This document shows, one piece after another, positions 1-38,367 of a stretch of 64,000 bases of DNA. The DNA is from Heliocidaris erythrogramma. Its lineage: Eukaryota > Echinodermata > Echinoidea > Camarodonta > Echinometridae. Under the pieces are notes generated by a model. The model searched no databases. It saw only the letters and a program-made list of their open reading frames with translations, and was not told the DNA's origin. The stretch covers positions 20,154,615-20,218,614 of the forward strand of contig CM046868.1 of assembly GCA_025617745.1 (NCBI GenBank), read 5' to 3'. The position numbers and the translations under genes are program-made. How positions within the stretch are numbered: position 1 is the stretch's first letter; each line of letters opens with the position of its first letter.

Positions 1-844
1 TTTTTGCTTTAGTAGGTGTCATTCAGTTGCAATATTCTTATTCTTTGTGTTAATGATCTAAAGAGGCCGACATATCCAGCTCTGACTTTTTTTTTCTTGT
101 AAGATATGTAACATGTTACAGTACATGTCATCACTACCATGTAACAAAAGATCATAACAAGTCGACTTCATTTCAAATACAGCCAAATGACTGCAAGTAT
201 TTCTCCTAACAAGAACAAATTTAAAAACTGAAGAAAAAAACAAAGTTTGTGAAAAGAGTCAAAAGACAATTATTTCATAGAAAAATTATTATTTTGAATT
301 TTATACATTGATTTCTGTTCACATTACTGCATGCAGTATACATGTACATACTATGAAATATATGTGAAATTTTCTTATGCACCCTTTCTCCATTAAATGT
401 ATAGTATAGTATAAGTTTTTTTTTCTTGTAAGAATGGGCATGATAGTGATATACTAGTCTGAGTCTTCATATTCAGTTTCACTTTCACACATAAACAACA
501 AATTAAACAAAAATTTGATTATTTTTTCAAACAAACCTCATTGTGGATGTTTTCAATCTAACTCAGCCATTTTACAAGGTAAGAAATGTTGCCTGCATGC
601 ACAAGAGTTAAATGTGTTATTTGTATTTAAGGTTGTGTCTACAGGTCTTTTTAAATTGTTATGTGGAACTGGGAAGGGGGATGGGGTGTTTGTATTTCAT
701 AGAGGTTACCAGTTTTTGTAAGATGGTGGGCAATGTTGGGGCAAATTGTTTTGTATGGGCATATTGCTGCAAAGATATGATATAAGGTTTGAAATATGAC
801 ATGTAAAAGTAGGTAATGTAGACAACATGTATGGGTATGAGAAT

Positions 845-900
845 CAAATGTTTTTTTGAGGTTTCAATGTAATCACATTGAAACCTCCAACAAACATTTG
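845..900. repeat. 56-bp hairpin in FGFR intron
   Basis: Two 26-bp arms (845-870 and 875-900) are inverted copies with three mismatches and only 4 bases between them (CAAATGTTT...AGGTTTCAATGT, then its complement). It lies about 400 bp before the cassette exon. It may be a miniature foldback element. The rest of 1-1298 shows no exon I can support. Confidence 0.7.
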
Positions 901-1298
901 AGTGGTGCTGGATAGAATGTATACAATGTTGAAGGATGATTCTTTGTTTAATGTTGATGTTGTGCAATGATGAATGATGGTAGAGAACAGAGAGCTGGAA
1001 TTTAAGATCGGTTACAAAGTTAATGAGCATGCTATTACATGTTGATGTCACTCTCCATCCCATAACAGATTGAGAGTATATAAATGATTTTAACCACTAA
1101 CACAATCTGATTTCCCATTCTCTCCCACTGTCCCTTATGCATGCCTGCCCGCCCATCCATTCCTCTCCACATACCAACCCCCATCATCCATTGGGGCTTT
1201 GATTGCTCCCACATGCAACCAATTCGTCTTTGGTTGCCATGGTGATTATGCTCCTACCTCCTCGCATGCAATGTTTTGGAATAATGTTGTGTGAGCAG

Positions 1299-1400
1299 CA
1301 AAGATGGGTTGAAAAGCCAATGCTGACTTGTGATGAGTTCCTGGATGTCTTCTACCAAAACCAATCTAAAAGGATGCTGGAATGTCTTCATCTGATTCAG
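1299..1400 (+). CDS. FGFR: Probable 34-codon cassette exon of FGFR Ig domain III
   Basis: This is an open stretch of exactly 102 nt (34 codons) bounded by GTGTGAGCAG on the left and a CAG/GTATTT donor on the right. It is in phase 0 on both sides, so it can be included or skipped before the 3523 exon without a frame change. The encoded peptide begins QRWVEKPM and ends CLHLIQ. It has two Cys (residues 11 and 29) and one N-glycosylation sequon, NQS, at residues 21-23. It has no Ig motif of its own, so it would be an insert in the middle of Ig III. As I recall, a 34-residue insertion in Ig III was described as a splice variant (Ig3L) of the sea urchin receptor SpFGFR; length and place agree. The polypyrimidine tract is weak, and GAG/CAG gives two possible acceptors 3 nt apart. 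Confidence 0.6.
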
Positions 1401-3522
1401 GTATTTTATCATCATCTCACCTCTCTCTCTCTCTCCTGCAGCTTCCTCGAGTCTCGCTGGTCTTTTGCTGGACATACAGCTTTCCTTTCTCTACTTAAAA
1501 TATAGATGTAACTCTGTATCTTTTATCAATATCTTCCCTTTCTCTTCTAAACAAAAATAGATGTAATTTGGTGTTTTGATTACTTTCTTTCCCTTTTCTT
1601 CTAAAAAATATATTATTTAGTGTTCTGATCAATCTTTCTTGCTTTCACCCTCTTTTTCATTATTTGGGGGATTAATTTGATATTTTTTCTCATAACATTC
1701 ATTTGGTCTTTTGGTATAACTTTTTTCATGTGTTGATTTCTTACAATTGCAATTCTCTCCTTTAATCATATTTTTATGTGGTCTCTGCCTAAACCAAAAG
1801 GGGAAGAATAGGAAAATCTTATTCAAGGTAGACTGAAATATGAAAATTTGTGCAAAAGGATTCCATTCATTTTTTTTCCCTAAAAAGTGCAATCTTGGAT
1901 ATGTGTATCTTCTTTAATTGGGGCTCTGAATCATACACTTAACCATATTGTTTAACTCAGTGACAGATGAATATTCTTATGGCCTTTAAATCCCATTCCT
2001 TTTCCTATGGTGGATACAACTCAGTTATAGGCCCTTTCTTACTCTATGAGTTGGTTGTAGATTGGTGGGGTCTTGGGTGAAATGCTTGTACTCATTCAGT
2101 GGTGTATTCTTTGTCATAATGCATTCAATATTGCTTTTCTTATCTTTTAGTGTTTATTTTGCTCTTCAAGTGTATTTCAAACTTTTTATTTCCATCAAAG
2201 TTTCTCTGCCATCTTCTTCTTGTCTTGTTTATTCCTTCTGTTTCTCTTTGCTGGTTTCTATCATTTATTTCATCTCTTATCTTTGAAAATCTTACATCCT
2301 CTGTTTTGCTTCTACATGTAGATGTTTTCTTGTAATGTTATCACCAGTATATTGAGCATTATTTCAGTCATATTTGTATTTTCTTGTAAATCATGTGTAT
2401 TTGTGGATATTGAAATCTACTCTCTTTCTCACTCTCCAGGAATCTCAGCTGAATCAACTCTTAAGCTTTATATTTCCTCTCTAGGAAAAGCAAGTTTTTT
2501 ATTTCTCTGCATGTCCATTATCTGCATGACAAATGATTTCTTGATTACTTGAGATTAACTCCTTAATTGCTTGTCGCATGTGTCTTGCCTTTCTAAAACA
2601 TAATACTCAAATTTCTAACATCAGATGAAATTGCATGAATTGACTTTCTAATTTCTTAATCAACAAAACTTTAAATATATACATTTCTTTTTATATATCT
2701 CTTTCCAATATGATATATTTTGGACATTGATCAATGTTTTTAAACTCCTTAGTGTTATTCTGCCCTTACTTCAATGGTGTTTTCTTATTTCATTGTGCAC
2801 TTTGCTTTATAAATTATGTACTCTGATTCTAAAAGTTTCTTTTCTTTTTCACAGCTCATATTTCTCTCTCTCTCTCTCTCTCTCTTGCCCACATCATTTA
2901 ATCTGCTTTTCACTTTCTTCATAAAACACTCTCATTTCTTATACAAAGTCTTGAAGATATGATATGAAGCTGTTGTCTTGCCTACAAAAAAAAATATCTG
3001 TGTGTTCCTTGCATTTCAATGATATACATGTATTATGTAATGCAGATGTTGTCATTACAAATAAGAATAGAGTTTTTAACAGTAGGTTTTGAAGTTAGTT
3101 TAGATATTTATCTCATTTTTTTTTCTTCTTCCATTGTTGATATGAATTAAGAATTGTTGAAGCTAAAAATATTTTCATTCAGAAACTATTTCAATATTTA
3201 TAGTTACTCCTTGTGGAATAAAGATAAAGACTTTAGGAATTTCAAGAGAAAACATTTAGCCAGTTATACCTGTAAACATGGAAATTATACATCGCTCAGG
3301 GCCTTCTCTGATGGTAGTAAGCTTAATTTGAAATATTATTTGAAGATATGAATTTAAAAATCAGACTTGAAAACATAAAACATTGTAGGTGCATCGTTAC
3401 TGATATTGTTCTTAGATTTGATAAATACAGATATGGAACACTAGAAACTTTAAAGGTAGATGAAGCATCGGAAAGAGCTCAGTGACTGATTTTGTATCTT
3501 CAATCTTTGCCTTTCTCGATAG
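1401..3522 (+). other. FGFR intron after the cassette exon
   Basis: A pyrimidine-rich intron on the plus strand with a (CT)n microsatellite at about 2867-2886 and a shorter one near 1421-1434. I saw no second Ig III half-exon here. The reading frame at 3154-3351 contains a chance SYTCK string but lacks a donor and the rest of the fold. Confidence 0.5.
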
Positions 3523-12315
<8,793 letters not shown>

Positions 12316-21828: not shown

Positions 21829-22961
21829 AGATGAATGCGACTGCGTCTCCTATATGCCTCCGCCTAAATTCAGTTGATGGCTCAAACTGTTCTTGAAATA
21901 TTGTGATAACCACGATAGAAAGCTTCTAATTACATGTTAATTGACCTCTATGACATTTGACCTTAAACATTACAACCCAAATGTCTGATCACTTTATCTC
22001 CTCCTAGTCATGAATACAAAATAGTTTGTTTTTACTTTAAGTGATATAAGCAACAAGTAAGACTTCATACATGTATGTCCTTTTTATTGCACATACATGT
22101 AATAATGACTCACATTTTGGGGAACAATAACACCCATCAATGACTTATTTACTGAACCAAGTTACAAAAGTTACATCAAGAAGTTGCATTTTCAATGTTA
22201 CCTCAGAAGCTTTTATTCTTTATTTTTCTTTTTGAGAATTCTCTTTTGCACACTAGTTCCTGAACAAAAAACTGTTAGCAAATTAATACTCTTTCATGTC
22301 CCTGTTTCCTCTCTAGATTGACAAGTGACAGTACAGGTTAGAAACCCAACAAAATTTGGTGTCTACCCACCTCTACATGTATATCTAATTAAAAAGCTTT
22401 GGAATTTGAACATAGTGCTTCTAATGAACCTGAACGAATTACTTTTCTTTTTAGATTCCTCCATTAACTCTACCTTGACTTACAAAATTCAGTTGTCATT
22501 TATCCTCGCCAAACCCAAATACTTATGAAACTACACTACTCTCATAAGTTGTGAGTTATATTTCAAGAAATGCTAAAACTATAGCTGAACATTTCGTTCT
22601 CTTTTAATAATAATATAAATATCTGTACTTATTTATACTTTATACACAACAAGAGCCATAGGCACTGAGACACACACTTTCTGTACAAACATAACACATA
22701 ATACAAACAGGGTTGATTGTACATATAACTATGTACAGATATGAAATATAGACAAGACAAATACAGTGTTTCTAATAAATCTCTCTCTATACATAAATCT
22801 ATGGGCACACTGCACATGCCTGGCACAAATACTCTACAAGGGTCGTCCCAAGCAATCTGGAGAAATCAACATAAAAAAGGCATTTTTTTGGCTTTCTGCT
22901 ACTTTTTTTTCATATAAAAAAGGAAAGTGTAACTCTATGCTTTGGAATAGTTGAGTGGATG

Positions 22962-23482
22962 CTAGCAGTGGAGAATTGTATGCTGATGTAAATGATGATG
23001 CATATTGGCTCGACTGCTAGTCAAGCTTCCATTGCTGTTTAAAGTGTCTGTGAAACTGCTCGGCGAATGCACGTCGTATCGGTTGAGGACGTTTTCCCGG
23101 CTGGGTACCGGGTATATGTGAAGAGTCTGTTGGGAGGCGATGGGGGCGCATTGCGCGGCAGTGAGAGGCGCACATTGTTCAATGTCCATCATATGGGGGT
23201 TGGCGAGATTGGTTCTGTTCAGATAATCCCGATGGTTGTACTCCTTTTTAATAGATGAGTTTGGGAGTTGAGGAGCGGGTGGGGTGGATCGATGGCGACG
23301 TTGAGACCTGGCTTTGTTGCGACCGACGGTGCAGATGACAATAACTACAATGAAGAGAAGGGCTAGGCTGACTGGAATGCCAATAAGTAAACCATGTTCC
23401 TTGGCACCCCATCCATCTGGAGGAACTGGGTTGACCCTAGGTGTCTGCTGAAGAGCTGGGTCTATTATGTTCATTTTAGGAT
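22962..23482 (-). CDS. FGFRL1: FGFRL1 last coding exon: transmembrane helix and His-rich tail
   Basis: It enters in phase 1 (acceptor TTACTGCTTAG) and ends at TAG (22964-22962). It encodes a short Pro-rich stalk, a transmembrane helix ([20 protein letters not shown]), basic stop-transfer residues ([11 protein letters not shown]), and a cytoplasmic tail of about 120 residues with tyrosines in [12 protein letters not shown] and HIYPVP. It closes with [12 protein letters not shown]. Vertebrate FGFRL1 also ends in a His-rich stretch and Cys, thought to bind zinc and to affect trafficking. No kinase follows. Confidence 0.95.
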
Positions 23483-26400
23483 CTAAGCAGTAACAAACGA
23501 AACAGAAAAAGTACATTACTTAGACAGACCAGAACATATATGTCTCATAAATGAATATTTGTTTTACAAAATAAGATATTTCAATAATACGAATCAACCG
23601 AAAACAGAGAAAAGGATGAAAGATTAATATTAAAAGATTCCTTTTAAGATTAATAAAAAGAAGCAGAATTATGCAAATTTAGTATTTTACAGACTGATAA
23701 ACACTTTATTATAAGGAACTAACATCAAATTGGTTATGAATACACAAATACAGGACTTTGTGACCCAAGCAGTTCAAAATTTGGTAGGTATTTTTAGTTT
23801 TGAAACTCTATACCATGCAATATTATTAATTTTATATTTTGCTTAAGTCAAAATGATATCAAATGAATGGGGAAAAATGTCTTTTACAGTATTACAATTC
23901 TTGAAATGTACAATGAATAATGTAACGGGGCATGTCCAAGGTATGTGCCATATATTACCAAGTATTATGAAATTGTGAAGATAAATTGAAATAAAATACC
24001 ATTTTATTAGATATTATAACGGATCCAAATTCTACTAGGGCTATCAGACTGATACAGTCATCAGAAATACCCCAATCAGATGCACTCGTTACACATGGGA
24101 CACAAAATAGCTTGGACTTGTCCAATGATATCTTTATTCCTGTCTCACTCTGTCATAGTGAAGTTATCACAAAGACTGAGTAGAACAACTCACCTGGAAA
24201 TACTTCTAGGAATGCACTCTTGAAGCTGTAACCCATGGTGTTAGCCCCAAGACAGATATACATCCCGGCATCTTCTGCTGTAGCATACGAAATGATGAGT
24301 TTATTGAGGTACGACCCATCTGGTCTCTGAAGCACATCGCCGGCAGGAAGAACCACAAAGTACTGGCCATCCATCTCAATGGTAGCATTGGTGGGGGCAC
24401 TGAGCGTCTCCACCCTCTTCAGCCATTGGATGTGAGGTTTGATGTCGCTACGCACACGGCATTGGAAGGACGTTGTACCTCCGTACTCCACCGTTGTGTT
24501 GACAGGGTGCTCCCCCAATAACTCCGGCTTCTTTTTCACTTGATCTAGAAAGGAAAAATACAAAAATGAATAATCATTGTATATTATTTTTCCGGCTCTA
24601 GTATAAAACACTCAGAATGGCCCTTCTATGAAAACATTTACATGAGAGAAATAAAAAGTGCTTGTGAATTAATCTATCTGAAAAATCTGACTATAACATA
24701 TTGGAAAGTTGCAAGACAAAAAATGTCATTGCTCACTGCTCAGTGTAATTAACTTCGTCCCTTTTTAATTATCCCTGTCTGTTTTAATTATCCCTGTCTG
24801 TTTTTAATTATCCTTGTCTGTATATATTTGTTTAGTAAAAACACTTTCAAAACATAGCTGCAATTCATTTAACATTTCCCTTTTGTTTGTCCGTTTCTTT
24901 GTATTTTGGGCTAGGCTTGCTACCTGTAACACACTTTCAATAATTTCTAATGGCTCTTTTCTACACATCACTTTTTGATTTGAAGAAGTATTTTCTACAA
25001 GTTTAGAGGAAATCTGTCCTATAATTTTTATGAGTAACATTCACTGACAAGACTGAAGATTTCACAAACTAAAATCACATATTCCATATTCAGAAATACC
25101 GATACTCTTCGATACACAAGTAAGGCAGGGAGATAATATTTGCAAATTAATGCTTCATTTTGATGCAACTGTTACTATTCATGCAGGTTTTAAATGCAAA
25201 TACATACTAGTACATTCATATAATTATGCAAATGTAATTTTCAAAATTTTAAAAATTCTAATACATTTCCCAATATATAAATAACTACGGTATCACAATG
25301 CATAATGAGCCACCACTACCATACATATATAATATAGACACACCATGCAATAAACATAACTTGATCATGCCACATAAAACATAGTAGAACTCGAGACTCA
25401 TCATAACAAAAATAGAAAGGCAGTTTCTCGCATGTGAGAATTGTCGCTTTCCCAAAAGTAAAAAAATTATTTGAGAAAATTCTATTTCTTGTATGCTTTT
25501 ACTTGAACCATACTGCAGGATACTTGTTAATTAGTTAAAACTCCACCAAGTGTGAAATAACACTGATTAATATATCGATTGTTAAATTCAGTCAGAACAT
25601 GTACCGCTATATGGTAAAAAATATATTTCCAAATTGCTCGCCCAGTTCATCGATTCATTTGGCCTGTATTCACGGGTAAGGGATAATAAAAACTGCCTTC
25701 GCTTCTATTCTATTTTAAAACTAAGCATTGCATAAGAGTAGATGTTCCTATTTTTTTTTTCATTTGATTTGGCCGAGCACATGAAGCTAATGAAGCAAGA
25801 GACTAAAAGAAATGTCTGCTACCATCAGCCACTCACCTACTACATCTACTTCATAGGTGGCGTTTATACGGCCGTGCTTGTTAAAGACTATACACGTGTA
25901 GGTGCCGCTATCTCCCGCCTTTAAGTGGCTCAACTTGAGGGTGAACTGTCTTGTTTGCTTGCCCTCTGATATGACCATTCGTGTGCCGTCCTTTTCCCAT
26001 ACTATCTCTGGACGAGGGTGGCCGGAAGCCTTGCACTTTAACCGCACAGAACTGTTAAGGGGCATCATTATCTTTTGGGCCTTCATCATTTTGCTCAGCT
26101 CAGAAAATTGAGGCATAGCTATATAAACGAATAAACATAAAGACATGCACAAGAGACGCACAAAAAGAGAAAACAGAAAAAAAGGGAGAAAATGAAAAAC
26201 AGTGGAACAAGTCCCGGGATCCAATGGAACAAGATTTTAAGGATGATTTGCAATTTGGTGAAAATGAAATTGTTCAATACGGGAAGGGGCGGGGTGAGGG
26301 AGGAGGTGACAGATTAAGGTGAAGGGTGATACAGGCCTAGTATTGGGTCTACAACCAATGAATTTGGATTGGATGACATTCAGTATAACATTCATGGAAC

Positions 26401-29400
26401 AGGTACAAACTAATGAACACCACACATATGGTCCTCTATTCGAATGGAAGGCTATCCTAACCCATGATAGGATGAGAGTATTTACTGACAGACGAATGGT
26501 CAACATCCGAACAATCCAACTTTATTGCTCTTTGTCAGAGTCGCAATCCGGATAACAACTTTAAGGTACCTTTCATGCATCGAAAATGCAACTCCGTCTA
26601 CTTACCACAACATTCCAATTCATTACAGACATGACAAACTTTTGATAGACTCTAATTAAGTCCAAAGACATACTAGTATTCTTTCTCTATTTTGTTTTTC
26701 ATTTTCTCTATCACACAAAACTCCAAGAATATGAATCCTGGATGAATAACCAAATAGCACTTGGCATACAGACATTTCTACAACATTCTATCATTTGTAC
26801 CAACATTATCTAAAAGCTACAATTTTCTTCTACGTAAAAGCTACAATTCAAAACAACATATAAAGGAAGAAGAAATGCAATTTATCATACATGCAGCCAA
26901 ATGGAGATATCTAACTGAAGGTCACCGTGGTTCTAGGAAGATTTAGTGAAACTTTCACCACTTTCTCTATAGCAATATAAACACAGTATAATTTTTTTTT
27001 TTTAATGTCAAATAAGACAATTCTCCAAGAATTTTATATTTATTATCTGCTGCAAAAGCTGTTTCATATGTGAAACACATCCTTGAGCAAATGATTTTGA
27101 ATAAAATATTGGGTTATGAGTACAGGCTAATCCAAACTTTTCATCAATTTACAAACTTTTTTTTTCTGCTACAAACAAAGTACAACTATTTACCATGAAA
27201 AGTACAATACAAGCTAATGAGATGGACAAGGATATCTTTCCTCACACTCAAGAGGGCGCTTTACTTACTTCCAGATGTTGGTCTATCAGGTCTGTCCTCT
27301 AGTGTTGGTATGTCCACCCTTGGCTCCCGTTCAGGAGAACTTGAGCCATCTATGGTAAGCAAAACAACATAAGAAAGGCCAAATGTCATTATTTGCAGGA
27401 TTCATAATATATCTGTCCATTGGGAAGTTTATTGATGGAATATAAACAATTTTGACCGAAACACAATGCAATAAAAAGGTTACATTTCTGATTGGAAACA
27501 AACGTTTCCTTTTTTATTATAGTTTAAATGTGGAACAACAGTATTCCTCATATCTGAAGGAACATAACTGAAAATAATGACTACACTCCCACTTTAGAAT
27601 TCATTTGGGGGAAGGGGTTTGACAATCTTTGTCAACCAATATACAGTGAATGTGGCGTAGATTGTATAAGAATGAGGGTGGGAGGATGGGACTGACTCTC
27701 ACCTTTAGACCACCTAACAAGCTTGATTGCTGGAAACCTCCCTTTCACACAGGCTCTAATTGCTATCCTCTCTTCGTCTATTCTTGTCTCTTTTCACATT
27801 TTGATGTGAACCTCTCAAATCATTAATTCCCTCCATCAAACTTCTCTTCATTCGTCCCATCTATTCTTTATACCTACTCCACAAAACACACAGGTAAACA
27901 AATTCATCACAACTCAAAAGATAGCAGGAAAGAGACAGGTACAATGGAGGGTCCCCCTCCTCTCTTTGATTTATCAGTCTATTCTGTTTTCAATTCACCA
28001 ACAATTCAGAGCTATTACACAGCCAAAGTGGACTGAATGAAAGCAAAGATTTGCAGCTGATTCATATGTAAATGAGTGCCTCTTTTGTCCAGCTTTCTTA
28101 CACCAGTGCTGGCGCCTGAATCAAAGTGGTTTGAATTTCGGTCCCTTTTTGGAAGGCCTGTGTTTTTTCTTCTGAGTGTTTACTCTGTGCAAACTTTTCC
28201 AGCATACCATTCTTGAGTGATATGTGCACAGTCCCTTCTTCTTTCTTTCCCGCCTTCAAATGCTGGCCTTCTCTTTGCCATGATCTATTTGAGTTTTGTC
28301 TGAATTCCGCAGGAAAGAATCTTGTTTCTTTGAGGAATGTTAGCATGAATATGCATTGCACCATCTGCTGGAACTTCTACTACACAGTATATGATTCTGT
28401 TGCGGACAATATATTCTGATATCCACCTCAAGGCCAGTCATTATTATATAGATATTCATAGTACATTCCAACCTAGCCTCACTTTTCTATACAGAGAAAC
28501 AAAATGTCATATATCCTTTCAAAAATAAAAAGTGGTCTTAAAATATGATAGGTAGATGAATATGTTCTTATTGTGAGGGTGGGGTGGGTTGGGTTGGGTA
28601 AGATATCTTGGGTCGTGCAAGGTCAAGCTTGGAGGCTGCTAGTACAGGGGAGCGTTTCATCAACCATTTTGTCAGTGATTTTTACAGACAACTGTTATAA
28701 GCTACTGAAATCCTTGCATCTGATTGGCTGAGAGCAAATTTGTCAGTAAAAATCACTGACAAAACGCTTGATGAAACGCTCCCAGGGTGCCTGAACCAAC
28801 ACCTCAACCAATGTTTAAGGGCGGGTTGTTTGGGGATTTGAGAGTGCCATGGCTGGTGTTGAGAAACGAGTGTTAACACCACCACCAACACGCCTTTGTT
28901 GTGGGGAGGGGAGGGGGGGGGGCTTAGTCTCTGGCTTGCAGACATGCTTTAGAACAATATCTTGAGACACTTCACAGGTTCGCACATTTCTTTCTTCCCC
29001 TATGATGAAGATAGCAAGGGCGTTAGTGTACAGGAACCTAGACAACTATATTAAAATAGAAATCTGAATTAATATATTCAGGGGACTACATGAAGTTTCA
29101 TGATTATCAGAAGTGTACAGACTTGTTTTGACGAACTGCTCAATTAGGAATGGGATCAAAGATCATATATCTCATCTATAGAGAAACAGGACATAAAGAA
29201 CAGAAATGGCAAAATCAAAATGATGAACTTTTTTGTACAGCTAACTGCAAAGAACTCTCCAATAAAGCATGCATACATTTATATTCTTTTTAAACACCTT
29301 ACGATCTCAACACCATGATAGAGAAAATGAACACGTTGGTCAGCTTGATTAAGTACCCTTTCTTTGTCAAATGTTTACAGTGAACTAAAAATTAGTTGAC

Positions 29401-32400
29401 TAAATTCAAGTAGTGAAAAAAAGTTACTTCGCAAACCCCTACAAGACAAAAAAACATTTTCAAGACAGTTCCTATAATTTGTCACTTTGTCTTTAATTTG
29501 TATTGTTTTATACATAATTATATATGTCACTTTAATGTTTTGTGTATGTTTTTATGGAGAATGAAAAAAATAAAATTGAATTGAATTGAAATAACAAGGA
29601 CAAACTCTATTCCAAGACTACCTTAGACCCAAGTCCTTTTTTCCCCTCATTTTCACCATTTTCTCAGAGGAGTCTAGTGTTGGTGGTAATAAACCTAGCT
29701 CCCATTATGGATAATTGCATGGGTTGACAGCCCAGCTCTGAGGGGGCTACTCATGAGGTTAGCCCCGGGGCGATAGGGGTGCTTTCAGGCTGGTGACAAG
29801 CTGCCCCATTGGGGCCAATCACTCAGTTAGTGTCCACTGGTATGGGAGGGAGCAGTGTAACCCAGGACAAAAAGTAGAAGGAGCATAGGCAGTAGAAACC
29901 CCAGGCCCAGTTTCATAAAACTTGTCATCAATGACAAGTTGCAATAACTGTTGTAAGCTCCTAAAATCCCTGCATCTGATTGGCTGAAAGCAAATTTGTG
30001 GGTAAAAATCACTGACAAGACACTTGATGAAATTCCCCCAGATGAGGTCTAAGTTTACAGACTTCTTACTGGATTCTGCTCTATCAGATCAGTGCTTATT
30101 AGAAGTCCCATACTGTGTTACATTGTTTGTTTTTAAAGCATCTTCAAAAATATAGGCTTAAGGCTAATCTAAGGAACAAAATCATTATTAGGAAAAAGTT
30201 TGATAAATAATCAGTGATAAAATAGCTACACCTTGTAACAAGACTAAAATAGGAATTCACATGATCTCTACCAGAAGTTTAACCAAATGAAAGTACTTTC
30301 AGCAGTGAAAGGATCCCCTTTTGGCAGAATGTTTACTTTAGAGTTTAGCTCGCCAATAGGGTGTATGGGCAATAAATCTAACTAATTTGTATTCATGTGT
30401 CACAATTCATTCAATGATATGCTTCAAAGTAAAAAAAAAATGATTTGTTCAAAACCCACCAAACCCGTGGTACTTCTTGCATCAAACTGCAGATTTCTGC
30501 AAAATTCTTTAATAAAAATCATTCTGAACATAAATGAAAAAGAATTCAACACTCATTTCCTTTACTAGTAAGCACTTCTCGCAGTAATGGTGACAGTTGC
30601 AATAGCTTCTTATCTACCATACAAATGATCTAATTAGCAAATAGTAGGCCTCCATCAAATCATCATACTTGGAACTTTTGAATTCAACACTTTCTTGTGA
30701 TAAGCAGGGCACATGATACCAATAATCACAAAAGAGATGGGAGAGATGATATAACCTTTCAAATTTGATTCTGTACTGGCAAAATTGGACAAGCCTACAG
30801 TGGATAGGTTGGAGTGTAAAACTTACTTTTTTGTTTACAAGAACTGGGTCAGCTAGTGTAAAATATGAGACATTATTAGAGTGATTCCGTTATACAGGGC
30901 ATCTCTCAAAAAAAGGAAACTTAAAGGCCAAGTCCACCATAACAAAAAGTTGATTTGAATAAATAGAGAAAAATCCAACAAGCATAACACTGAAAATTTC
31001 ATCAAAATAGGATGTAAAATAAGTTATGGTATTTTAAAGTTTCGCTTAATTTCGCAAAACAGTTATATGTACATCCTGCTCAGTATGGAAATGAGAGAAC
31101 CAGTGACGTCACCCACTCACTATTTCTTTTGTATTTTATTATGTGAAATATAGAAAATTTTAATTTCTGCAGATTTCACAATTAGGAAGCTCGCATTGAA
31201 TTGTGTATAGGTTGCAACAATGGCAATTACACATGTTCAGTGAGGAATCAAACCTTGTTTCACATTATAACAAGGAAAAATTAAAATATTTTGTATTTCA
31301 TGTAATAAAATACAAAAGAAATAGTGAGTGGGTGACGTCACTGGTTCCCTCATTTGTATACTGAGCAGGATGTGCATACAACTGTTTTGCGAAATTAAGC
31401 AAAACTTTAAAATACCATAACTTTCTTATTTTACATCCTATTTTGATGAAATTTTCAGTGTTATGCTTGTTGGATTTTTCTCTATTTATTCAAATCAACT
31501 TTTTGTTAGGGTGGACTTGGCCTTTAAGTTTATTAGTAAAGTACTCAGGAATTCCAAATTACTCTTCCATTAAATGGCAATCTAACCTTGTTAATAAGAT
31601 GATTTGTGTGAAAGCAGAAAACTGAGATCACTAAATCAATGCGAATCTCAAATTGGCAAATGGGCGAGTGGATTGTGACATATTGGTGGACAACTCTCCC
31701 CTTTTCTTACACAAAAATATTAATTTGCGGTTTTCTCCTCAGCACCTATTCCCTCGGGCAGTACTCAAAATATGTTGTAGGTGGCATACTGTTACAGATC
31801 CTCATAAAAGAAAAAGATCCTACTGAGTAATACAATTGGGGAAAAAATACATTTTAGTCATTATGTGTGTTGGAGCAAATAGGGGAGTTATCTGCCACTA
31901 CATTACAGTGAAATTCTTGAAGCAGAAAATTAAACAAAAAGATTAATGAAAGTTTGAGAAAAATCTGATGAGAAATAAGAAAGATGATTTTTCAAAGTTG
32001 TAATCAATCAAACACAATGCCGTGACCGTATCTTACGAGTTCCTCCCCCATTTGCCCTGTACTAGTAAAAGATCATAAATTTTCATTTTCATTTTCTCTG
32101 TAGAAAATATTCAATCATATGTGCACCATTGATATGATCATTGCACATATGTTTTATACAAAACCTCTATGAAACAAATCTTTTACATCAACAACTAAGA
32201 AAATGAAAATTTATGTAATTTTCTGTATTGAGCAAATGTGAGAGGAGCTCGCAAGATATGTCACAGAGTTGCCAATTTGTGTCTGATTGTTAAATAACTT
32301 TTAAAAATTCATTACTTTCTCATTTCTTATATATCAAATTATATTCAAACTTTTACTAATTAGTTTTTTTTTAATATATCGTCCGTTGAGAGCAAGAAGG

Positions 32401-35400
32401 CCGTTAACTCTGTGTTAAAGCATATGAGGTAATGCCTTTCTGGCTCTCAACAGACAAATTATGAACTTGTGTAGGCATTAAGGGGGATGCGAGGCTTTCA
32501 GTGTAAAAATAGTGTTCATCAAATGAACACCTTTGGTTTGAAGGGGCAGTACAAGAAACTGGGAAGAGAAAATTTGCCAAATCGCATATTATGATCAGAA
32601 ATAATGTGTTTCAGTTTGTTACCAGAACAATTTGGTCTACAGCTGGCCTTTCTGTTCCAAGATTTGTTAGTTGATTCAATTCTTTAATTTTTTATATATG
32701 ATTTGTTGGATGAATTCAGGATGACTAGGGAACAATATGGGAAACAACACTGAATCTCCACAACACAGGGCGTAATAACACAGATTTGACACATTTTTTA
32801 AATATCAAGGTTCCAAAATTGTATTGGGACCTTCAAGCCCAAATGAGAGATGGACATGACAGCCATGTTTTCAAGTAAAGTGTTCAGCAAACTTCTGACT
32901 TTGAAGATGATTCAGGATGATATGATTAATAGCAGCTAGCTTCATTCACTATTCAGTTTCTTACACACCTTCAAGGATTACCCTAATATCTCTTTGTACT
33001 ATCTCTGAAGTATTCTCTCATCGGTGTTTGCTGATCGCTAAGATTTGTGCATGCTCGAGGTAAAAGCAGAAGTGACGAGAAAAAGTTATTAGGTTAAGAT
33101 CTTGCAACATTTACACTTTCTCGACCAGATGATGAGTCAGAAATCACACAAGAGATTATCTGTGAAATTTCATATTTTTGCCTTTTTAGCCCCCCCCCCC
33201 AAGTAAGTAACCCCCAAGCAATGTGATTGGCCAATGTGACAAATCCGCCTTTAAACAAGTGCAGAAATGGTTGATTCACCACCGTTTGCCCTTCGTCTTG
33301 ATGAAATGGAGCACAAAACCGGAGTACATTGTGTGGGAAATGTTTGCGATCGACTAGATGCCAAGAGGGGGTGGCGGCACCATCAAAGGGCTGATGGCCC
33401 TGGGGCAAGGGGAGAAAGGAGGAGGGTGCAAGGAAAAAGGAAGTTAAGAATGAAAGGGGAGGGTTAAAGAAAGTGGCACAGATAGAGAAAGATGATAAAG
33501 ACAGATAAAGAACAGAGATGGATGAAAATATAAGATGGGAGAGCAAGAAAGAGGACAGATGAAAGGAGGAAAATGGAGAGAGGTTCAACAGAAAAAAAAA
33601 AGTGAATGAGAAGAAGAGACAAACCTATACGCTGTAAGTAAATGAACAGAATTGTGGGAAAAGGACATAAGTTTTATTTGCAGAAAGAATGATGAAAATA
33701 ATTAATGAAACACTGCTATGGAGAGACGAAAGTGAAGAGGGATACATGTAAATAGGGCCAGTCACATTTCACCAATCACCAATAGTTCTGTAAAATAATC
33801 GTATAAAAATTGGCCTTCTGAATTAATGTAGAAATCATATTGAACACAGGTGTTGTGATGCCACAAGAAAAACTGGTGCTGAAGGACCATTCAGATAACT
33901 CAGTGAGATGAGAACTGCACCATCAATATCCAATAGTACCTTTTCAACAAATATTCAGGAGACCGATTAGTATTGATTCGCAGTAATAGTTATGGTTATC
34001 GGTCAAATGGAACCGGTCCTTTTATACATCCCCAGCAAGAGACAGCATTTGAGAGCACACTAGATTCCTCCATCCTGGTATCTTCTTGGAGATCAAAACT
34101 TCAAACTTCATGTCAAGAATAGAAGGCCTATTTTGTTTCAAGAAAGCTATGATACCTACAAACTTTTCCAAACTAAAAAACATGAAAGAAAAGCAACATC
34201 TAACTCTAATGACTTATGAATTGTGTGATTCTAATTTTACCATGTCTTACAACCACCTATTCACAGACACAGATCAAATGAGACAATCCTTTTCCTTGAA
34301 GTTAGCAGTCTGAAATGGTTAACGCACATTCCTATGAATAGAAACTGACAAAAGATACTTGTTAAATCCAGGCCTGGTTAAATCATCCAAGCATTGATAC
34401 CAGTCTATATGGTTACTATGCCAAGCATTCTTTTGCCATTTTCATGAAGGGCATCATTCTCACAAGGAAGCATAAATAAAATTTAGTTCAGATTATGTCA
34501 TAGAAACCATCAACTGTTTCTACCATGAGTATAAATGAAGAAGAAAAAAACAATCACTTTTTATCCATCTCTTTATTATTTCTGAGATGAAATATTCTGT
34601 TGGAGATAAGTTTGAGATTATTCATGCCCAAAATGCAATCAGCCTTAGCAGTAGGCTAATCTTTCCCCATCGCCATGCCGATATTTTGGAGTGTCTGGTG
34701 AAGAGGAAGGAATTTTTGATGATGTAATCCAATAGTTTGTGCAGGGGATTAGAACAAGATATCAAATATGGACTAGAGGAGAGAGATGGGTAAGATCAGG
34801 TTCCAACTCCAACGCTCAGATGTTGAGAGCATCTCCATTCTCCATTGAAAGGTGGAAAGAGAAAGTTAACCCCTTAAAGGTAATCTTGTTTTCTAGTAAT
34901 GAAACATCATTTGAAGAAAAATTGTGTATAAGTCATTCTGAATCAATGATTTGTACTATATGAAACTCTTATTACTATATATGTAGTGAAATATTAGTGA
35001 AACTAGTATTATCTTAACTAAACAATCATCAACAAGGGTTAGCTAGCATGCACAGGACTAGGTATCGAAATGCTGAACCTGAAGAATAAAATGTCTTCAC
35101 CTTTTGTATTTGATTACTACTCAACTAATTTACAGTTACATTATATACCATATCTGCATAGCAGATATTCATTTATGCAGGTGAAAGTAATGCAGTGAAA
35201 ATGTCCTTGGACTTTGTGTGAATTATATTTTGTCACTACAAGACTTGAATATGAATGTGAATAGTGGGGCAGGTTAACTCAAAGGAAGATAGTCTACTTT
35301 CAAAGCTTCTATCAACCCTCGATTAATAACAACTCTGAGCAAACTTTGAAATATACAGGTGACTGAATACTCCACTGAAGGATTGCAAGGTAATACTTTA

Positions 35401-37855
35401 TTTCATTTAGAGAGAATTTGATAAAGCTATATTTCTGTGTGGGGTTCAAATTAATTATGAACATCCTGATCAACAAATAACGATGGTCTACATCTACTTT
35501 TCTTTTGACAATACAGGCCTACTTATTTGGGCTCACTCATTCTCAACCAGTTGTAGTGTGTTATGTGTATTGTTTTGTACACAATCTTATCTTCTTGAGG
35601 AGTGCAAAGAAAGTAAAAGCTGAGAGTCTTGATTTATGCTCAAGAATTTTATAGCAGGTCATAGGACTCTTCACAAATTTCAAGAGGGTTGTAAATTGCG
35701 AGGGGTGGGGGCCTATTCCCATTATGTTAAATATCTGCACTACACATTTCATTTACCAGTAAAAGAAGAAAACCCAGGAAATTTGCAGCATTTAGGAAAT
35801 CTGCAAGAAGATATCATTTATTCAGATGAGAGAAGTTGTCCTTCCCACTGAAGGTCCACAGGTTGTACATGCTCCATCTTGCATCATCTTTAAAGGGATA
35901 CTCAACCGCAGATTGTGGACGTTTTTTATGCCGCAAGAGGGCACCGTGATCGGTACCTGATCATGCTGTTGCCCCACCAGGCACAAACTTCGGACAGACT
36001 GGTCGCCGTGCAAAATGCACGCTCCGCCCGAGCTCGAGCTCGAGCTCGAGCTCTCGTGCGAGATTGCAATTCAGTTTCACTTTTTCCAGTGTGTGTGGAT
36101 CGACCTAATGTGAACAGGCCCAGTGAAACTGTGGCTGGCATGACAGTTGAACTTTTGGGAGGACAAGATTGGCTTTCCTTAGCAGAATCTATGAGGCAAG
36201 TGGTTGGTGGACGGGGATAAACTCATAAACCTATCATTTGGAGTGATAATAAGTCCTAAATCATACACAGATATGGAATTTAGAACAAGAGTCAAAGGCA
36301 TACTTGTTTAAACTTTAAAAGGGAAATAGTTGTGTTCTGGGTAAAAAAAAACCCTCCTATATTTGGATAGAATTATGATGCTTTGGAAAAAGAGTGTAAG
36401 TTAAATTCTAAATGACCTAAGGAAAAACCAAAAACAAAGAGAATGAGTATACATACTATCTGGAACAATTCACTTTATCCATATTCATTGTCTTTATTTT
36501 TCATGGAGCATTAATTAACATATATATTTGCAGGTTTTTAATATTCTGTTGTAGAATAAGGCATAAGGCTATATCATATGCATACTATTCCATTTGGAAT
36601 ATCATGCAACCTGTTGTATAAATTACCAATACAGCCACTGTGGTAGTATTCCACATGTCTTTTATCACACCCATTTAATCTCAATTCTCTCACATTGAAT
36701 ATTTGAAATGACAGATGTCTTGGCCAAGAGAAACAAAAACCACATGTGCATTTATGGAAAATGATGTCTTCACACAAACAATTGCCAGTACGAAGTTATT
36801 TTCATCATCTTCAACTCCAACTTGGTAATGACATGACCAGCAGGTCATCAACAGGTTTTAGCCAATCTGGCTATCTCAAGTGACAGGGCATCTGGATGAT
36901 CAACAAAACAGGCACACCTTACATCTGTTTTCTGAATCAGAATTTAGTCATATCAAACAACAATCCTTCTTATATGATCATAGCAATTTTGAACCACAAA
37001 CTGTTATGAGCACATGGCTTAGGTGTAAGGTCAAGGGCCTTGTGACTTTTCAAGAAATATTAAACATCCTCTGTTTTCACCTTTTCTTTCCTAAACTTCC
37101 TTCTAGCTTTTTGGATAGTTTGTTCACAGAGGCTTTTCTTGGATTTTCCTCTGAAAAGATGGAGGCCTACTTGTCCTGGTCTTGTGGTTAAATCAACAGA
37201 ACTGCATGATATGAGGTGCAAATCTATGCTACAGTGGAACCTCATTATAAAGAACACTGTTATAACAAACTTTCATTATAACAAGGTAATTTACTTGTCT
37301 CAGTTTTTTGGATTCTTTTGTTTTTTAACCCTGATATAACAAGGTTTAGATATAACCAGGTAATTTCCATGGTCCCAAGGAGTTTGTTATAACAAGGATC
37401 TACTATACTGCACATATGTCCTTTGGCAAGACATTAATCTACATTTGCCACTTTCCATCCGGGTGAAGTAAACTGATACCTGATTAGATGAAGTTACTTG
37501 ATGCTCGCTATATTTTCACCATCTTAAATGGACATTGACCATAACAGAAATAAAGAGGGGCCCAATGTTAATTTAAACTCACCTGTAATTGTTAATGTAA
37601 AATTCACACTGACACTCCCAAATCCATTAGTGGCCCTACAGATGTACGATCCGCTATCTTCGACCACCACATCATTGACCTTTAGGCCCTCTGACCTGAC
37701 CCGGAAGCGTTCCCAGCCGCTGTGAATGGTAACACCGTCCTTGGTCCACATGATGAGGGGTGGGGGGTTCCCCGAAACCGGGCATGGAAGCTTGATGGAT
37801 CGCCCCTGGACCGCTTTCCGGAAACCATTTACCTGCTCAGAAATCTTTGGTGGTC
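22962..37855 (-). CDS. FGFRL1: FGF receptor-like 1 (kinase-less FGFR), all but the signal-peptide exon
   Basis: A single-pass membrane protein with three Ig domains and no kinase; family members bind FGFs and heparin, act in cell adhesion and can modulate FGF signalling. Exons, 5' to 3' on the minus strand: 37855-37583, 27349-27269, 26118-25837, 24544-24194 and 23482-22962. All introns are GT/AG and all are phase 1, so each Ig or linker exon is a symmetric module. The exons encode about 501 residues, close to human FGFRL1 at 504. Diagnostic strings: [13 protein letters not shown] (Ig I), [15 protein letters not shown] (Ig II), IQWLKRVE and [17 protein letters not shown] (Ig III). The tail is short and ends in His-rich residues and Cys. 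No kinase sequence follows. The signal-peptide exon was not found before the window edge. Confidence 0.95.
24194..24544 (-). CDS. FGFRL1: FGFRL1 exon: Ig domain III, unsplit
   Basis: A phase 1 to phase 1 exon of 351 nt. Acceptor TTTCTAG, donor TTTCCAG/GTGAGT. The whole third Ig domain is in one exon: [66 protein letters not shown]. In the neighbouring FGFR this domain is split by an intron with a cassette exon. Many of these strings are nearly identical to vertebrate FGFRL1, making this the best conserved part of the gene. Confidence 0.96.
24762..24820. repeat. Three tandem 19-20 bp units with TAATTA
   Basis: The unit TTTTTAATTATCCCTGTCTG occurs three times in a row with one or two changes. 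Each unit carries a TAATTA homeodomain core overlapping a GATAA-type site on the other strand. It lies in the FGFRL1 intron upstream of the Ig III exon. The rest of the introns 23483-24193, 24545-25836 and 26119-27268 shows nothing I can support. Confidence 0.7.
25837..26118 (-). CDS. FGFRL1: FGFRL1 exon: Ig domain II
   Basis: A phase 1 to phase 1 exon of 282 nt. Acceptor TTATATAG, donor GTAGTAG/GTGAGT. It encodes [20 protein letters not shown] and [21 protein letters not shown], then [20 protein letters not shown]. The basic stretch at the N-terminus (KMMKAQK) is where the heparin-binding site lies in FGFR family Ig II. The sequon NATY is conserved with the human protein. Confidence 0.95.
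27269..27349 (-). CDS. FGFRL1: FGFRL1 exon: linker between Ig I and Ig II
   Basis: A phase 1 to phase 1 mini-exon of 81 nt (27 codons). Acceptor GCTTACCATAG, donor GGAA/GTAAGT. It encodes [20 protein letters not shown], a hydrophilic, partly acidic linker standing where FGFRs carry the acid box; in human FGFRL1 this linker is also Ser/Gly-rich. Being symmetric, it could be skipped without a frame change. Too short for routine ORF detection; it was found from the splice phases. Confidence 0.85.
28648..28783. mobile_element. MITE-like foldback, GGGAGCGTTTCATCAA family, copy 1
   Basis: Ends GGGAGCGTTTCATCAA (28648-28663) and its complement (28768-28783) with subterminal GTCAGTGATTTTTAC and GTAAAAATCACTGAC also inverted. 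The interior CTTGCATCTGATTGGCTGA is shared with the copy 1.25 kb further on. It lies in the 10.2-kb FGFRL1 intron between Ig I and the linker exon. Confidence 0.85.
29906..30039. mobile_element. MITE-like foldback, same family, copy 2
   Basis: A more decayed copy: CCCAGTTTCATAAAACTTGT at the left, the shared interior CTGCATCTGATTGGCTGAAA, and ACTGACAAGACACTTGATGA at the right. Same orientation as copy 1. Confidence 0.75.
30921..31527. mobile_element. TTAA-ended foldback element, 607 bp
   Basis: The two ends are TTAAAGGCCAAGTCCACC (30921-30938) and its exact complement (31510-31527). The arms extend about 225 bp each with few mismatches, for example CCAGTGACGTCACCCACTCA against its complement near 31325-31345. 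The middle of about 160 bp is unique. TTAA at both ends could be the duplicated target of a piggyBac-like transposase; this is inference. I know this end sequence as very common in sea urchin DNA, by recollection only. No coding frame. Confidence 0.88.
32381..32455. repeat. 75-bp foldback
   Basis: GTCCGTTGAGAGCAAGAAGGC (32381-32401) pairs with GCCTTTCTGGCTCTCAACAGAC (32434-32455) in inverted orientation. Short MITE-like element in the FGFRL1 intron. Confidence 0.65.
36029..36053. repeat. Self-complementary (AGCTCG)n microsatellite
   Basis: About four copies of the 6-mer CGAGCT make a perfect palindrome of some 25 bp. It lies inside a more GC-rich patch (about 35900-36200) of the FGFRL1 intron that has no recognisable exon. 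Confidence 0.85.
37230..37410. mobile_element. Foldback element, ACAGTGGAACCTCATTATAA family, copy 2
   Basis: Begins ACAGTGGAACCTCATTATAA and ends GTTATAACAAGGATCTACTA, its rough complement, with TATAACAA repeats inside. The part CCTGATATAACAAGG...GGTAATTTCCATGGTCC matches the copy at 20114-20318. Confidence 0.75.
37422..37485 (+). repeat. Truncated SINE core, related to the 47.3-kb SINE
   Basis: GGCAAGACATTAATCTACAT, TTGCCACTTTCCATCC and GGGTGAAGTAA align with GGCAAGATATTAATCTACAA, TTGCCACTCTCTACCC and AGGTGAAGTAA at 47341-47388. The tRNA-like head is missing. It lies 100 bp downstream of the FGFRL1 Ig I exon (intron side), next to the foldback at 37230-37410. Confidence 0.7.
37583..37855 (-). 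CDS. FGFRL1: FGFRL1 exon: Ig domain I
   Basis: A phase 1 to phase 1 exon of 273 nt. Acceptor TTGTCATTGCAG, donor ATTACAG/GTGAGT. It encodes [39 protein letters not shown], then [20 protein letters not shown]: a full I-set Ig fold with both Cys and the Trp. The N-terminal Gly is split by the intron, as expected just after a signal peptide. Confidence 0.95.
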
Positions 37856-38367
37856 CTGCAATGACAATCAAATATGATATGACTAATTAATTTGAATATT
37901 CACAGAAACAAATGTATGTTATTAGGTAGCTTAGCGAAACGTCATGGAGCGTAAAAACACTGGAAAGACGCATATGAAAAAATTATTCAAAATCAAAATT
38001 TTGTTCTATAGAGGCAAAACCACAATATTAGGATGTAGAATAAGGATTTAAATCTTTGAACATTTTCAAACAAAATAATATGAAAACTTTTATTCAGATG
38101 TCTGAATCAAATTTTATGGGCACATACAAAACTGGCAAGTTTCCTCTTTGCATCTTTCCCACGTCTTTATGCATCATTACGTTTTCGCGAAGCTACCTTC
38201 ATTAAGATCATTTCATCCAAGATTTAATTTCAATAAATATATACTGGCAACAAAAACCCCACCAAGCAAAGTACTACATGTACATTATTAGACTCATGTT
38301 TCAAAAAAATTTCTGTCAATTCAATATCAACAAATACTACTTTGGTTGTTACTTGTTCTGTACTTAG

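Follow-up and report, generated by a model that had tools for sequence, protein, structure and literature searches.

The 102-nt segment at 1299-1400 is very probably a real, optional cassette exon of sea-urchin FGFR1 of the ambulacrarian type, as judged from its sequence and surroundings. As such, it is probably a feature already described in print, met here in a further species. With a probability of roughly 55%, the FGFR cassette of ambulacrarians depends on a distant branch point. Its inclusion would then be controlled from a branch site lying about 200 nt upstream and through factors binding an AG-free zone, a route unrelated to the chordate Esrp switch. The distant branch point is possibly a new detail of a known exon; the literature searched, which misses most subscription journals, yielded no mention of one for this exon. 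If true, it would provide a concrete cis-element at about 1095-1293 and a handle on how the choice of FGF-receptor isoform evolves without Esrp.

The window, that is, the whole 64-kb stretch of sea-urchin chromosome analyzed (20154615-20218614), carries in its first 12.3 kb the 3′ part of the FGF-receptor gene FGFR1 on the + strand, ending at the stop codon (Table 1). Exon names were given by homology and exon boundaries were assigned in the present analysis. The IIIa exon lies outside the window, 1.4 kb upstream, and was located by tblastn with Ig III of the neighboring FGFRL1 as the query. The interval between IIIa and the IIIc-like exon is 4.9 kb, with introns of about 2.7 kb upstream and 2.1 kb downstream of the cassette. 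In a PDB alignment, the join ISILQ/LETQ of IIIa to IIIc pairs with QILK/TAGV of human FGFR1, which we take to be the IIIa/IIIc boundary of that receptor. Moreover, published SpFGFR1 primers (PMC4549668) match the gene: the reverse primer at its juxtamembrane site with 1/20 mismatches, and the forward primer, at the start codon, near base 2575 of L006 with 2/20 mismatches.

Table 1. Features of FGFR1 and the neighboring FGFRL1. Negative window coordinates count from 0, the last base preceding the window; a slash marks a splice junction.
Feature	Position	Strand	Remarks
IIIa exon	L002:8396-8583 = window -1604 to -1417		ends ...DDHISILQ/gtaagc, phase 0
AG exclusion zone of cassette acceptor	1077..1293	+	219-nt AG gap from 1075 to 1294
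Branch-site-like CACTAAC	1095..1101	+	putative use; A at 1100 as presumed branch point, 198 nt from last intron base
Polypyrimidine tract directly after presumed branch site	1111..1136	+	22/25 pyrimidines, richest window
Tandem acceptor GAGCAG	1293..1298	+	34 codons with CAG; one extra Gln codon if GAG were used
Probable cassette exon of FGFR1, Ambulacraria-type	1299..1400	+	34 codons, phase 0/0; single protein match in own genome at E<=10, one candidate scored
Donor gtattt	1401..1406	+	score 7.7, among the scores of 13 true donors
Exon homologous to vertebrate IIIb/IIIc (second half of Ig III)	3523..3664	+	phase 0 to 1
FGFR1 transmembrane exon	5306..5526	+
Juxtamembrane exon	6266..6396	+	contains SpFGFR1 primer site 6376-6395
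Seven tyrosine-kinase exons	7427-7542, 8950-9060, 9565-9752, 10171-10293, 10737-10945, 11439-11544, 12199-12315	+	last with stop
FGFRL1, Ig I	37855-37583	-
FGFRL1, linker	27349-27269	-
FGFRL1, Ig II	26118-25837	-
FGFRL1, Ig III	within 24153-24611	-
FGFRL1, transmembrane + His-rich tail	to ~22962	-

The segment reads gagcag/CAAAGA...ATTCAG/gtattt and is frame-neutral and open. It encodes QRWVEKPMLTCDEFLDVFYQNQSKRMLECLHLIQ, 34 residues with Cys at 11 and 29 and an N-Q-S sequon at 21-23. Phase 0 is shared by the end of IIIa and the start of the IIIc-like exon, so the cassette fits the phase at both junctions. Counted from IIIa with the stop included, the frame has 584 codons with the cassette and 550 codons without it, and both joins are open to the normal stop. 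The initial annotation had proposed a frame-neutral 102-nt exon with two Cys and an N-glycan site, upstream of the Ig IIIc-like exon at the vertebrate IIIb/IIIc splice position, and it was correct in coordinates, contents and position. The place expected of an ambulacrarian Fgfr cassette, between the IIIa and IIIb/IIIc exons, is the place where the segment was found. Its length would equal that of the SpFGFR Ig3L insert, which we take to be 34 residues.

By ordinary signals the exon is inconspicuous. Weight matrices for the splice sites in FGFR1 and FGFRL1 were built from 13 donors and 14 acceptors, with true acceptors scored leave-one-out. The cassette acceptor scored -2.7, below all 14 true acceptors (1.1-12.6), and 40% of the 4165 + strand AGs score at least as high. 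The donor score is average relative to the true donors (5.4-11.9) and is reached by 1.8% of the 3773 + strand GTs. A search of 74 kb for stretches that are frame-neutral, open in phase 0 and 60-250 nt long, and that match the cassette at both ends, returned 18 on the + strand and 4 on the - strand, any qualifying true exons included. The codon score was 0.009 per codon compared with -0.049 to 0.319 in 11 held-out FGFR1 exons, lower than in 10 of the 11, and 14% of 2513 overlapping open intronic windows reach it. In another comparison the cassette fell below all 516 true coding windows, but these overlapped and were the training set itself, and the held-out comparison is therefore fairer. Splice scores and codon bias were rejected as proof of an exon. 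The cassette is not exceptional by ordinary splice signals, and a gene finder might well miss it. What does exceed chance expectation is the AG exclusion zone, together with a phase that suits both ends and an exon published for the same place.

In PMC1431707, AG zones are defined without regard to any AG within 12 nt of the intron end. With the GAG 3 nt before the acceptor set aside in this way, the cassette has a zone of 219 nt, beyond the 100 nt taken as the lower bound for distant branch points. This gap ranks first among the 4167 on the + strand of 74 kb and first among the 7232 on the + strand of 124 kb. The gaps at 11 other acceptors of FGFR1 span 28-70 nt. Within the 218-nt AG-free segment GA occurs 6 times and AG never; AG was absent in 4/20000 mononucleotide shuffles. 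In first-order Markov sequence of 74 kb the longest gap averaged 145 nt and exceeded 219 nt in 1/60 runs (221 nt). The length of the gap alone is thus within chance, and the evidence is its place at this acceptor.

The layout of the zone is consistent with a branch site at its far end. With T4 and A6 fixed, no heptamer in the zone other than CACTAAC comes within one mismatch of TACTAAC, a match that occurs 51 times in 64 kb. Closer than 198 nt to the acceptor, the zone has no heptamer with up to two mismatches to TACTAAC, again with T4 and A6 fixed. The last 25 nt of the upstream intron include 11/25 pyrimidines compared with 14-19 at ten other window acceptors. By simple consensus matching, a branch-like site and a pyrimidine tract are therefore found at the far end and none near the acceptor. 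A TGCATG element is located at 1138 inside the AG-free zone; 29 such elements are present in 64 kb.

Long AG gaps are also present elsewhere. In the vicinity, a gap of 180 nt (1619-1799) has no known exon, and gaps of 128 and 121 nt also occur in 1-3522. On the - strand, a 218-nt AG-free stretch (26120-26338) ends at the acceptor of FGFRL1 exon 4 (Ig II), where the proximal pyrimidine tract is normal and a scan of 230 nt gave no branch-like match. A further stretch on the - strand, 33401-33626, is AG-free over 225 nt and pyrimidine-rich, with no exon assigned. A gap that accompanies a normal tract and a gap that accompanies no exon mean that a long AG zone does not prove a distant branch point.

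In the proposed mechanism, the poor local pyrimidine tract at the acceptor would lead to reliance on the distant branch point at about 1100, from which scanning would proceed across the AG-free zone to the tandem GAGCAG. An exon defined in this way would be weak by default and open to regulators binding the 200-nt zone, and a distant branch point would help to explain why the cassette is optional. In human exons with zones of at least 100 nt, alternative splicing is more frequent, and one-fifth to one-half of such zones are estimated to reflect a distant branch point, according to the available text of PMC1431707.

The AG-free zone could instead be a by-product of base composition or of regulatory elements, with a real exon that uses a conventional, or non-consensus, branch point close to the acceptor. 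We regard this as possible, although not as the favored explanation. The AG-poor places in the neighboring introns speak for it, as does FGFRL1 exon 4, which combines a gap of similar size with a proximal pyrimidine tract. It is harder to reconcile with the lack of a branch-like heptamer within 198 nt at up to two mismatches, with the pyrimidine-poor end of the intron, and with the excess of GA over AG in the zone.

Two further explanations would deny the exon its function, and both draw on its weak acceptor and weak codon bias. It is improbable that the open frame at 1299-1400 arose by chance between cryptic sites, with the true cassette elsewhere in the IIIa-IIIc interval. The 18 + strand stretches equal to it at both ends would allow this, but the top-ranked AG gap falls at precisely this acceptor, the phase is correct at both ends, and the position upstream of IIIc is the published one (PMC5703972). 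Still more doubtful is a lost exon, or pseudo-exon, the inclusion of which has ended in this species: all 34 codons are open, both splice dinucleotides and the phase are kept, and the AG-free zone is intact. The preferred reading is an optional cassette exon, with a distant branch point as the most likely mechanism.

The insert resembles no known domain. Searched against Pfam, it gave nothing above cut-off, with an EF-hand model as the best match (E 0.071), and the best PDB match had an E of 2. An Ig-like or other Pfam identity was rejected, as the EF-hand model and the DUF match of a longer frame at 1203-1505 are all below cut-off. On local alignment of the insert with IIIa and IIIc, 1354/2000 and 1077/2000 shuffles, respectively, scored as well; the test is a weak one, since an alignment of IIIa with IIIc itself gives no better score. 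The earlier statement that the insert lacks Ig homology is borne out by these Pfam, PDB and shuffle comparisons. A search of the genome with the insert protein returned only its own copy at E<=10, with one candidate scored. A single-sequence model of the 34 residues, which is weak evidence, places helices at 11-20 and 24-33 (pLDDT 78.8, pTM 0.37), and the insert may form a helical hairpin that carries the two Cys and a glycan site.

Skipping of the cassette would join IIIa directly to the IIIc-like exon and yield an ordinary Ig III. Inclusion would add 34 residues at the IIIa/IIIc junction, a point that we take to be at about the start of the βC′-βE loop. The Pfam I-set match is continuous when the insert is absent and falls into two stretches when it is present. 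According to the available text of PMC6379346, the βC′-βE loop of D3 is a main FGF-specificity contact in vertebrate receptors. Insertion at about the start of this FGF-contacting loop makes an effect on FGF binding likely, and the insert would be expected to alter or block such binding.

Searches with the kinase exons returned 16 matches at E <= 1 and 31 at E <= 1e-6, from which five regions (16 stretches of 10 kb) were inspected. No clear second FGFR with its own cassette was found in these regions, where the best match to the insert had an E of 0.069. S. purpuratus has two annotated FGFRs (PMC4549668, available text), and a second gene may therefore have been missed here.

FGFRL1 occupies 22959-37865 on the - strand, tail to tail with FGFR1. 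Proximity of sea-urchin FGFRL1 to FGFR1 has been published (PMC2754479, available text). Eleven S. purpuratus FGFRL1 junction strings given in the available part of PMC2806250 were compared with the gene: one matched exactly, three had one mismatch, three were in place with 2-4 mismatches (2 at the end of exon 6, 3 at the start of exon 3 and 4 at the start of exon 4) and the remaining four were not located in place. The sizes of exons 2 and 4 agree with the published ones (273 and 282), and exon 3 has 81 compared with 84. Judged by these FGFRL1 comparisons and the FGFR1 primers, the DNA seems to belong to a sea urchin closely related to S. purpuratus and probably not to that species itself, or else to a rather divergent allele. 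The printed FGFRL1 table of that report, in its available part, seems to have the rows for exons 4 and 5 mixed.

The introns also carry repeats. A young SINE-like repeat is located at 4950-5156, in the intron after the IIIc exon; 39 other copies, 97-99% identical, were scored out of 1024 genome candidates. An Rfam tRNA match (5080-5152, - strand) lies inside it, and a tRNA search with ARAGORN in bacterial mode found none. At 7758-8669, an intron insert has inverted repeats of 28 nt at its ends (79% complementary) and more inverted repeats nested inside, and from its sequence it looks like a non-autonomous DNA transposon. Several pairs of loci about 0.16-0.6 Mb apart on one contig (L015/L016, L028/L029, L010/L011, L022/L023 and L026/L027) gave identical scores, which suggests segmental duplication or unpurged haplotypes in the assembly.

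Among exons with distant branch points, α-tropomyosin exon 3 and PTB exon 11 (PMC1431707, available text) resemble the cassette in their long AG-free zone, far branch-like site with a pyrimidine tract and, presumably, alternative splicing, whereas the branch point of the cassette is presumed from sequence. Some 2.5 kb separate the upstream donor from this putative branch, so that steric mutual exclusion is not expected at the cassette.

The closest counterpart is the ambulacrarian Fgfr exon of S. purpuratus and S. kowalevskii (section 12 and Fig. 7 legend of PMC5703972). An alternative exon upstream of IIIb/IIIc and unlike its neighbors is described there for S. purpuratus and across Ambulacraria, with earlier reports credited to McCoon 1998 and Mistry 2003 (refs 40 and 41). 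The match, made by place and description, covers the gene, the position, the cassette type and the lack of likeness to neighboring exons. The present gene differs slightly from the published S. purpuratus sequence, and the term "branch point" has 0 occurrences in the available text of PMC5703972.

In vertebrate FGFRs, the same junction and the same half of Ig III are varied, but there two homologous exons, IIIb and IIIc, are swapped under Esrp control, whereas the cassette is non-homologous and added. No homologous IIIb/IIIc pair of the vertebrate type was found here: neither Pfam nor PDB gave an Ig match for the cassette, and of the 6 matches of the IIIc-like exon in its own genome at E<=10, the best one other than itself has an E of 0.19. 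In the available text of PMC5703972, Esrp dependence of the ambulacrarian exon was not detected, and the initial view of the cassette as a solution independent of the vertebrate exon swap agrees with section 12 of that report. Amphioxus Fgfr exon IIIx (PMC5703972, available text) is likewise an additional exon of this region and is spliced to IIIc in one isoform; it is described as cephalochordate-specific and is set beside the cassette by description only. In FGF receptors, the evolution of splicing has thus acted repeatedly on the IIIa/IIIc junction.
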